Of a DNA stretch of 23,186 bases, positions 1,297 through 3,560 are shown one piece after another. Made by a program: the position numbers and the translations under genes. This stretch comes from a virus, in IMG/VR virus record IMGVR_UViG_3300015360_000207, positions 1-23,186 of that record; one strand, written 5' to 3'. Under the pieces are notes generated by a model. That model made no database searches, had not been told where the DNA came from, and saw only the letters and a program-made list of their open reading frames with translations. Positions within the stretch are counted from its first letter, which is position 1, and each line of letters starts with the position of its first letter.

Positions 1297-3560
1297 GTTC
1301 AATTACGAGTTATTTATTAAAGATAACTTTAAAATTATTAACAAAGAGCAAAACGAAGTGCCTTTTGTTCTTAACACTATCCAGCACCAGTATTTATTCA
1401 ATGATATGAGTGGTCATGATGTAATACTTAAAGCACGTCAACAAGGGTTTTCATCAGTTATTCTTGCAATATTTACAGCTGACTTTATCTTAAAACAAAA
1501 CTCAGTTAATTATGTGGTTGCAGACATTGATGATAATGCAACGGACTTGTTGCAAAGAGTTAAGTATTTCATTAAAGCATACGAACAGGTCACAGGTGTT
1601 AAAGTGCCTTTGAAATATAATTCAAAGTCAGAGCTTGTTAATGAGGCAATGAATAGCACCTACAAGATTGGAACAGCTAAGAATGCAGAGTTTGGTAGGT
1701 CAAAGACTATAACAAATCTACATCTATCAGAATTTGCATTCTACCCTAATCCCAAGAATATTATAGCTGGAGCTGGACAAGCAGTAGTTGAGAATGGAAG
1801 GCTTATTATCGAAACAACTGCAAATGGATTCAATGAATTTAAAACTTATTGGGATGATTCGGTTATGGGTGAATCAACATCTAAGCCTTTATTTTATAAG
1901 GCATCTGACTTTTACTCTCAAGAGTTTTTAGAGCGAAAGAAAAAAGAACTTAAAGAGAGATTTCCCCAAGAGTATCCTGAGACAGCTGAGGAAGCATTCT
2001 TAACTTCAGGGGATTTGTATTTTGATGCAATAGCACTAAAGCATTACAACGATAACAGTATGGAATTTATGAGGGAGGGCCAAATCTATCTTTAGACAAT
2101 ATCGTAAAATTGAGAAGGGTGAGTTCTTTGTTATCTTTGCAGATACCTCAGCTGGAATGGGGGATTATTGTGCAGTACAATTTCTATCTAAGACTAGAAT
2201 TGATGTACCCCTCGTATACCATTCAAAAGGAATTGCAACAATAATGACAAATGATATATTTCCAGTAATTGAGAAGATACACGACATTACGGGAGTAAAA
2301 CCAGTAGTGGCCTATGAGCGCAATAATGGGGGCGTATTTGAGTTGGAGAGGTTATCTGCTATGAATAGACTCTCAAAGTATAAAATCTTTGAAATGCGTA
2401 ACTCAGGGCGCACAGAGAACCCTGAACCAACGAAGATCGGGTATGATACTAATACCGCAACTAGACCCAAGATGTTAACTGATCTTAAAGACGCAATAGA
2501 TAATAAACTCCTAGGGGTATATGACAAGATAACAATTACCGAGTTGTATTCTTTTGTTCTAGTACAAACCACATCAACCATTAAGGCACAAGCGGAGAAA
2601 GGTGCACATGACGATTTGTGTTTTGTAGCAGGAACTAAAGTATTAACAGATAAAGGTCAAATCCCCATTGAAAAGATTAAAATTGGAGATTTAGTAATGA
2701 CTAGAAAAGGATATCAACCAGTCATGGCAACAGGGAAGAGAAGCGCAAAAGTAATTTACAATAAATATCTAAATTTAATAGGAACTTCTAACCATCCGGT
2801 TATAACTATGAAGGGCAATATTCCATTGCAATCAGTCAAGGTCAATGATAACATATACATATGGAACGAGAAACTATCAACTATAGAGGAAAGAACTATC
2901 ATAGATACCCCCAGTCTAATAGACGACAACTGCGTGTCTACTTCTGGCGACACGATAAGTGGAAAGAGCCACCATTTTCCTTACATAGGCAGATCTTTAT
3001 TGATAACTTTGGAGAGATACCTGAGGGATATGTTATTCACCACAAAGACGAGAATCCACTTAATAATGAGCCCGAAAATTTGGAGACTATATCTAGACAA
3101 ATCCATATGCGGAATCACCTGCTTACTCCAAAGAGGAGGGCTATTTCTATTGCAAACGGTAATAGGCAAGCAGGCAGATTGGTTAAGCAACTTGCAGATT
3201 GGAGACAAAATAATCCTGAATTGGCAAGGAGTATCTATCAAGAGAATGGAAGAAATCAAAAAGATAAAGCAACTAAAGTGCTTGCAGATTGGAGACAAAA
3301 TAATCCTGAGAAAGCAAGACTTATGCAACAGGAGAATGGAAGAAGGAACGCGTCTAAGTATAGGTCAAAGCAAACGGGTCGTTTTCAATCTCAAAGTAGC
3401 TAATACCCCTGAATACTTTGCAAATAATATTCTTGTTCACAACTGTATGTCTTTGGCTGGCGCATGGCAGCTGTATCAATTATGCTCGCAACCATCACAA
3501 CCCGTACATAGCTCTGACTTGCCACAATTTAAAGCCCGTGATAGTGTAATTGGCATATGA
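1289..3560 (+). CDS. terL: Large terminase subunit, in two frames and split by an intein
   Basis: This is the motor and nuclease that packages phage DNA into the prohead. The first frame (1289-2095) holds the ATPase domain: a Walker A-like RQQGFSS near residues 50-56, a Walker B-like LHLSEF near 145, and ETTANG near 175-180. It ends at a TAG at 2093-2095. The second frame, entered at 2094, carries the RNase H-like nuclease: ADTSAGMGDY (first catalytic Asp near residue 285), AYERNNGG (Glu near 343), and HDDL near 440. Joining the frames by a +1 step gives the natural sequence GQIYL-RQYRKIEKGE. An ATG at 2157 lies inside the first nuclease motif and would lose its catalytic Asp, so it is not a real start. 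Removing the intein (2619-3443) leaves about 481 residues, a normal length. The frame change could be programmed, an error or a mutation. Confidence 0.9.
2071..2096 (+). other. Candidate +1 ribosomal frameshift site in the terminase
   Basis: The upstream frame reads TAT CTT TAG A at 2087-2096. A +1 slip of the Leu tRNA from CTT (2090-2092) to TTT (2091-2093) lets translation continue at AGA (2094). The release factor 2 gene is known to use TAT CTT TGA C for the same slip. GGAGG at 2074-2078 could act as an internal Shine-Dalgarno stimulator, but it is 11 bases from CTT, whereas the RF2 gene uses a spacing of 3. The downstream frame is closed by TGA at 2070-2072, so the shift must occur between 2073 and 2095. 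Confidence 0.6.
2861..3403 (+). CDS. HNH homing endonuclease nested out of frame in the intein
   Basis: A 180-residue protein read in the frame two bases on from the intein frame, wholly inside the intein. Residues 52-86 have the HNH layout: EIPEGYVIHHKDENPLNN, then PENLE and a closing His pair at 82 and 86. Residues 1-50 (NYHRYPQSNRR, SLHRQIFIDNFG) also fit phage HNH enzymes. Residues 111-130 and 141-160 form a 30-residue direct repeat beginning LADWRQNNPE, perhaps a DNA-binding module like the NUMOD-type repeats of such enzymes. A TAA at 2849-2851 closes this frame upstream, so ATG 2861 is the only normal start; no Shine-Dalgarno sequence precedes it. Such enzymes nick or cut intein-free alleles so that the element spreads by repair. 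Both frames stay open over 540 bases, which suggests selection on both. Confidence 0.82.
   Translation: MERETINYRGKNYHRYPQSNRRQLRVYFWRHDKWKEPPFSLHRQIFIDNFGEIPEGYVIHHKDENPLNNEPENLETISRQIHMRNHLLTPKRRAISIANGNRQAGRLVKQLADWRQNNPELARSIYQENGRNQKDKATKVLADWRQNNPEKARLMQQENGRRNASKYRSKQTGRFQSQSS
3191..3340 (+). repeat. 90-bp direct repeat inside the nested HNH gene
   Basis: Two units at about 3191-3250 and 3281-3340, offset by exactly 90 bases; their first 29 bases are identical and the rest is similar. In the HNH frame each gives LADWRQNNPE...ENGR; in the intein frame each gives LQIGDKII. The unit length is a multiple of three, so duplication kept both frames open. Confidence 0.8.

Follow-up and report, generated by a model that had tools for sequence, protein, structure and literature searches.

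The 23 kb virus record analysed here (23,186 nucleotides, hereafter the window) carries what is likely to be a mobile intein made of two genes, that is, a complete intein in the frame of a terminase nuclease gene and, over its centre and in another frame, a full HNH endonuclease gene; protein splicing, DNA cleavage and leaderless expression of the nuclease are inferred. As a rule, an intein endonuclease forms a domain of the spliced-out protein, which ties together the dose, the fate and the evolution of splicing and homing. An out-of-frame homing endonuclease inside a contiguous cis-splicing intein is an arrangement apparently undescribed so far, and the comparisons presented below make it likely that it is both widespread and mobile. 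The features of the window on which the argument is built are collected in Table 1.

Table 1. Features of the nested intein and of its surroundings in the window (positions refer to the whole window).
Feature	Positions	Strand	Remarks
Host gene, terminase nuclease subunit	2088-3560	+	ATC at 2088 as the probable start codon, preceded at 8 nt by GGGAGGG
Left flank, putative co-conversion tract	2612-2618	+	3 differences from the intein-free contig L201 in 7 nt, all synonymous
Complete intein, 275 aa, host frame	2619-3443	+	Cys1 to His274-Asn275; Pfam Hint_2; AlphaFold2 model; empty allele in L201
Block B motif, T56-S-N-H59	2784-2795	+	T and H invariant in 39 inteins
-35-like hexamer, TTGCAA	2826-2831	+	Conserved in position across the family, weak in the window; 17 bp upstream of the -10
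Extended -10-like element, TGATAACAT	2846-2854	+	TG at 2846-2847, hexamer TAACAT at 2849-2854, 6 nt before the ATG
HNH_3 endonuclease gene (180 codons and a TAA stop)	2861-3403	+	-1 frame relative to the intein; Pfam HNH_3; more than 100 relatives in frame and phase
HNH catalytic core, residues 41-84	2981-3112	+	All invariant residues present
Duplication with a 90-nt period, C-terminal helical region of the HNH	3191-3309	+	Identical 29-mers at 3191-3219 and 3281-3309
C-terminal splice blocks F and G, VVFNLKVANTPEYFANNILVHN	3378-3443	+	HNH stop (3401-3403) inside block F
Right flank, putative co-conversion tract	3444-3461	+	18 nt with 7 differences, of which only Val to Cys at +1 is nonsynonymous

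The terminase of the window is encoded by two genes, one for the ATPase (1289-2095) and one for the nuclease, whose frame is open from before 2157 through 3560; the intein is inserted in the latter, directly after GAHDDL. The same division of the terminase into an ATPase and a nuclease gene is seen in L201, L202, L004 and L135. In relatives, the nuclease gene begins with ATG; at the corresponding position of the window and of L201 there is an ATC (2088-2090), and a rare ATC start, preceded by the motif given in Table 1, is the probable reading for both. A +1 programmed frameshift (CTT TAG A) was also considered for the split terminase of the window and was dropped, as relatives have a separate ATG-started nuclease gene at that place.

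The splicing side of the element is complete. In the host frame, Pfam recognizes Hint_2 (E 2e-10), and the insert extends from a Cys1 codon at 2619 to a terminal His-Asn at 3438-3443, with Cys+1 following at 3444-3446. Cys1, T56xxH59, block F and the terminal Asn are conserved in an alignment of 39 full inteins, all of which match the Pfam family Intein_splicing with an E-value of 0.01 or better, and the +1 residue among 81 relatives is Cys in 75 cases, Ser in 5 and Thr in 1. The AlphaFold2 model of the window intein reaches a pLDDT of about 95 at residues 1-80 and 251-275 and is of poor confidence only over the overlap with the HNH gene; taken together, its confident ends match mini-inteins, namely Mtu RecA (Z 17.3 over 122 residues, 2.1 A) and gp41-1 (Z 17.1). 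The sequence and fold features expected of an intein are all present: Cys1, the block B TxxH motif, blocks F and G with His-Asn followed by Cys+1, and the HINT fold, the last as predicted by the model. The predicted splicing fold is a direct result of the modelling; the identification of the insert as an intein with a complete splicing domain rests on sequence and predicted fold, and self-splicing itself is inferred.

The nested frame is equally well preserved. It matches HNH_3 in Pfam (E 1.6e-14), and every residue invariant among relatives is present in the window (H60, H61, D63, N68, N69, N73, H82 and H86). The structural model of the HNH protein has a pLDDT of 92.5, and I-HmuI (PDB 1u3e) is the best solved relative of this model and of the family profile alike, being the best sequence match in the PDB (E 3.5e-4) and the best fold match, a weak one (Foldseek E 0.02, probability 0.99). 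The nested gene has the profile and the intact motif of an HNH_3 homing endonuclease; site-specific cleavage of an empty allele is only an inference. When the HNH protein of the window is recoded with random synonymous codons, about 8.7 stops are expected in the intein frame, against none observed, well outside what chance would produce. Moreover, the 90-nt duplication in its C-terminal region keeps both frames, because 90 is a multiple of 3. Start and stop of the HNH genes are often written in intein codons: an intein Trp or Cys codon commonly comes right after the ATG, and the V-Y/F-N/D of block F is where the stop is placed in 33 of 81 loci. In the window, too, the TAA lies within block F, which starts near 3378.

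The first-pass annotation, made on the window without database searches, had placed an intact intein and, in another frame, an HNH gene with intact HNH residues. These claims held and their coordinates are exact, as judged by the frames, by Pfam searches of both translations (Hint_2 in the host frame, HNH_3 in the nested one), by the boundaries that L201 provides and by the presence of all residues invariant among relatives. Its description of the HNH gene as reaching the edge of the C-terminal splice block held only in part, as the gene runs into block F and ends inside it.

The strongest support for two genuine genes comes from the family as a whole. HNH relatives were gathered by HNH protein similarity alone, with the other frame ignored, and 166 distinct HNH genes were tested. 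In 107 of these, the +1 frame, corresponding to host and intein, contains no stop over about 195 codons, where random synonymous codons would give 6.3, and the +2 frame of the same genes has 19 stops on average; the remaining 59 relatives show 7.9 stops, with 8.2 expected. A reciprocal search with the intein-frame alignment returned, as its best IMG/VR hits, 80 loci (75 distinct), all 80 with an HNH gene in the same phase; the query, an alignment of nested inteins, favours nested ones. The dual open frames and their conservation are thus shown, and the initial proposal of two overlapping proteins, with the endonuclease outside the splicing frame, is supported by this comparative evidence. L001, the nearest intein relative in IMG/VR, shares only 42% identity with the window in the intein frame and resides in a different terminase, encoded by one intact ORF; its nested HNH gene is 58% identical to that of the window and keeps the same relative phase. 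Pairwise comparison of the overlap reveals that most change falls on the third HNH codon position, which is the second position of the intein codons. As the second intein position changes most, it is the HNH frame that carries the sequence constraint, the intein frame being mainly kept open; in other words, the overlap evolves freely in the intein frame, with openness and not sequence being maintained there. Congruence between HNH and intein distances is positive and weak (Spearman 0.32, a value not reached in any of 300 Mantel permutations), its weakness being due to saturated distances.

Nested inteins are hosted by several terminase families, by DegT aminotransferases and by DNA methylase-like genes, and cultured phages are included. 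Specifically, the nested layout is seen in terL of Tetrasphaera phage TJE1 and of Acinetobacter phage Highwayman and, by the frame test, in Rhodobacteraceae phage LS06-2018-MD07, and in all three phages the nested region is annotated as terminase only; an annotation allowing one gene per stretch would miss such HNH genes. Conventional inteins with an in-frame HNH were recovered among distant relatives, in the DNA polymerase-like genes L035 and L043, and therefore the search tools would have shown such inteins. A search of a plasmid collection for relatives found none.

Some further loci are worth recording in their own right. A DegT-type aminotransferase gene (L190, 4001-6353) holds two inteins, one of the nested type with an out-of-frame HNH and, slightly farther downstream, one with an in-frame LAGLIDADG domain, so that both layouts occur in one gene. 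In two other loci (L038, 2431-4470; L040, 2662-4377), HNH ORFs lie over a DNA methyltransferase-like gene in +2 phase and without intein blocks, and their long overlapping frames might be a product of chance in GC-rich DNA. Finally, L011 (3297-3985) is nearly identical to L012, with single-base losses that break its intein frame, for which sequencing error or decay may be responsible.

Evidence of mobility is provided by L201, an intein-free contig that is 99.5-99.6% identical to the window over about 5 kb and confirms both intein boundaries: at the junction L201 reads GAHDDL-VMSLAG, the window GAHDDL-intein-CMSLAG. Ten differences are concentrated in 25 nt at this junction, compared with a background of 0.35% (P about 1e-18), and all are synonymous but the change of V to C at +1, a position occupied by V or I in all 14 intein-free relatives checked. 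The precise empty allele and the changes clustered at the junction, both of them shown, meet a feature of mobile elements. The clustered flank changes are, in the more probable interpretation, what co-conversion during homing would leave, and the element would arrive together with the Cys+1 that splicing needs; they fit co-conversion without proving that the HNH of the window made the break, and homing by this HNH is the preferred reading of both the empty allele and these changes, short of a demonstration. In addition, HNH and intein are more than 50% identical between hosts whose exteins are less than 30% identical. The two parts can also separate: in L018 (198 nt gone with respect to L012) and in L266 the HNH core is deleted, with the intein frame and the splice blocks intact.

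How the HNH protein could be made is a question that the first-pass annotation had raised, having noted that no Shine-Dalgarno sequence precedes ATG 2861 in the window, an observation that held. A promoter-like element lies upstream of this ATG (Table 1), and its expected +1 is the A of the start codon; in the window itself the element is weak (TTGCAA plus TAACAT, single-sequence combined p 0.09). Across the family, 44 of 101 nested loci score for a sigma70-like pattern (consensus TTGACA, 16-17 bp, TATAAT) whose end lies 6 nt ahead of the HNH start, and transcripts would then open directly with the start codon. Strong Shine-Dalgarno sequences occur in 5% of the promoter-bearing loci as against 56% of the others. 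Since the intein amino acids alone could create a promoter-like pattern, codon choice was tested. Asp is encoded by GAT in 38 of 39 cases at the -10 and by GAC in 9 of 11 at the -35 (Fisher p 2e-7); for Leu at the -35, the codon is CTT in 8 of 10 cases before Asp (1.5 expected) and TTG in 20 of 33 otherwise (6 expected); the T of the extended -10 (position -15) is found in 33 of 38 loci (16 expected), while no departure from expectation is seen at the two adjacent wobble positions upstream. The p-values of these contrasts treat related sequences as independent. In a general test for excess over synonymous recoding, the -10-like excess was not position-specific in an offset scan, since AT-rich wobble positions in this region give it at other gaps too, and it is on the codon contrasts that the promoter case therefore depends. 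What is shown is a promoter signal at the codon level across the family; that about half of the family carries a promoter with selected codons inside the intein is a likely reading of it, drawn from the sequences alone, which suggests a leaderless HNH mRNA, with expression remaining an inference. The puzzle of translation is accordingly answered in part, as the HNH ATG is closely preceded by a promoter-like element in many relatives and by a Shine-Dalgarno sequence in most others. As for the proposal that splicing and homing are uncoupled, it holds for the protein product and probably for transcription, homing of the intein by the HNH staying inferred.

The explanation that we favour is a mobile intein consisting of two genes on one DNA stretch. 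In the host frame, the HINT domain would splice itself out of the terminase nuclease, whose active-site motif would thereby be restored; the DNA separating the splice halves amounts in this frame to no more than an open and probably floppy linker. One base back, the same DNA would encode an HNH_3 endonuclease as a separate protein. It would have a start of its own, for which a promoter lying in intein codons probably yields an mRNA opening with the HNH ATG; in other members, a Shine-Dalgarno sequence would serve this start. The HNH protein would then cut intein-free alleles at the conserved GAHDD-coding site, and repair would copy the whole cassette together with a few flanking exon bases, including the Cys+1 needed for splicing. 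A bolder reading can be advanced, for which the evidence tips the balance only slightly: a widespread lineage of cis-splicing inteins would carry a promoter and a complete out-of-frame homing endonuclease gene with a leaderless mRNA, HNH expression would be independent of translation and splicing of the host gene, and loss of the shared frame would be a direct route to the split inteins of fractured genes.

Among the alternatives, the one that survives best, though unlikely, is that the HNH gene is a passenger, that is, a nuclease of the free-standing type that has settled in a mini-intein and acts elsewhere, for instance in the exclusion of other phages, with the intein moving by ordinary recombination. 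In its favour, phage HNH genes are often free-standing nucleases, and an HNH relative in Acinetobacter phage BP10 adjoins the terminase genes without any intein. Against it, intein and HNH accompany each other, whether at the same terminase sites or in unrelated genes, and the empty allele reveals a very short conversion tract centred on the insertion. A second alternative, for which little room is left, is that the HNH is not made from its own start but as an intein-HNH fusion through -1 ribosomal frameshifting. The HNH frame is indeed the -1 frame of the intein; however, a stop 9-12 nt before the ATG closes the HNH frame in most close relatives, no slippery heptamer was seen near the HNH start in the window sequence, and the ATG with an upstream promoter-like element or Shine-Dalgarno sequence is conserved.

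A third possibility, put forward at the outset by the first-pass annotation, is that an intein with an in-frame HNH has recently undergone a pair of compensating frameshifts, or that assembly errors at both edges mimic them. In-frame HNH inteins do exist, as L035 and L043 and the dCTP deaminase intein (PMC6293099) demonstrate. Nevertheless, the same phase is found in more than 100 diverged sequences from independent assemblies and in cultured phage genomes, and in most close relatives the HNH frame does not stay open for more than 9-12 nt ahead of the HNH start. This alternative has consequently failed: it is practically excluded for the window and refuted as a general account, and close homologues with an in-frame endonuclease, named beforehand as the finding that would overturn the nested reading, are contradicted by the same conservation of phase. 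Finally, a group I intron with an HNH gene that is open in frame by chance can be virtually dismissed, since phage introns commonly carry HNH genes but no Rfam intron family matches the window or seven relatives, and the insert has all intein blocks, the HINT fold and a C/S/T residue at +1.

With the two-gene intein as the preferred reading, two functions reside in two genes on the same DNA and can be separately regulated, inherited and lost, deletion alleles keeping the splicing frame without the nuclease. A number of questions become testable in this system: how an intein can accommodate a selfish gene without being fused to it in frame, how the promoter, the start and the stop of another gene can be written in intein codons, how the +1 Cys arrives with an invading intein, and how the split inteins of fractured genes could originate.

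With conventional homing inteins, such as PI-SceI and the dCTP deaminase intein of cyanophage CL131, in which an in-frame HNH_3 is present and which self-excises (PMC6293099), the element of the window shares the HINT domain, the splice blocks, an endonuclease between the splice halves, a conserved active-site motif as insertion site and a patchy distribution with empty alleles. In those inteins, however, the endonuclease is part of the intein protein, whereas the window encodes it in a gene apart, out of frame and independently started, which in the family often has a promoter-like element of its own; the in-frame endonuclease, which is the defining feature of conventional endonuclease inteins, is met neither in the window nor in any of the 80 loci of the reciprocal search. 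I-HmuI, which is intron-encoded, represents a type of HNH protein (PDB 1u3e) that shares the HNH_3 core, and the HNH of the window differs from it in its helical C-terminal repeats. The literature on inteins with an out-of-frame endonuclease yielded only the work on the ShiLan domain (Arsenault et al. 2025, PMC11855218), an insertion in phage DNA methylases with a 'hidden' HNH that is out of frame; the arrangement may have been described elsewhere, subscription papers being mostly outside the search. The authors of that work rejected an intein and proposed leaderless initiation for the hidden HNH (PMC11855218). ShiLan and the window have in common an HNH in another frame, an insertion that is open in the host frame and the absence of a Shine-Dalgarno sequence, but ShiLan lacks a splicing domain, which in the window is complete. 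An insertion resembling ShiLan is also seen in L034 (2919-4718) and L033, where a DNA methylase has an out-of-frame HNH in +1 relation and no intein blocks.

Fractured genes are reported to combine split inteins with an intervening endonuclease gene (Dassa et al. 2009, PMID 19264795; in the reference list of PMC3229294), and thus share with the element of the window splicing halves with a separate endonuclease gene between them. In fractured genes the endonuclease parts two genes, while in the window the intein is contiguous, is overlapped by the endonuclease and should splice in cis. In Vibrio phage 1.238.A (NC_055735.1, L200; 3065-6793), three ORFs encode, respectively, terL with the N-terminal intein half, an HNH, and the C-terminal intein half with the end of terL; the HNH has the phase of the nested family and the intein frame is closed in the middle, which makes this locus a fractured gene with a split intein and, in a likely reading, a link between nested and split inteins.
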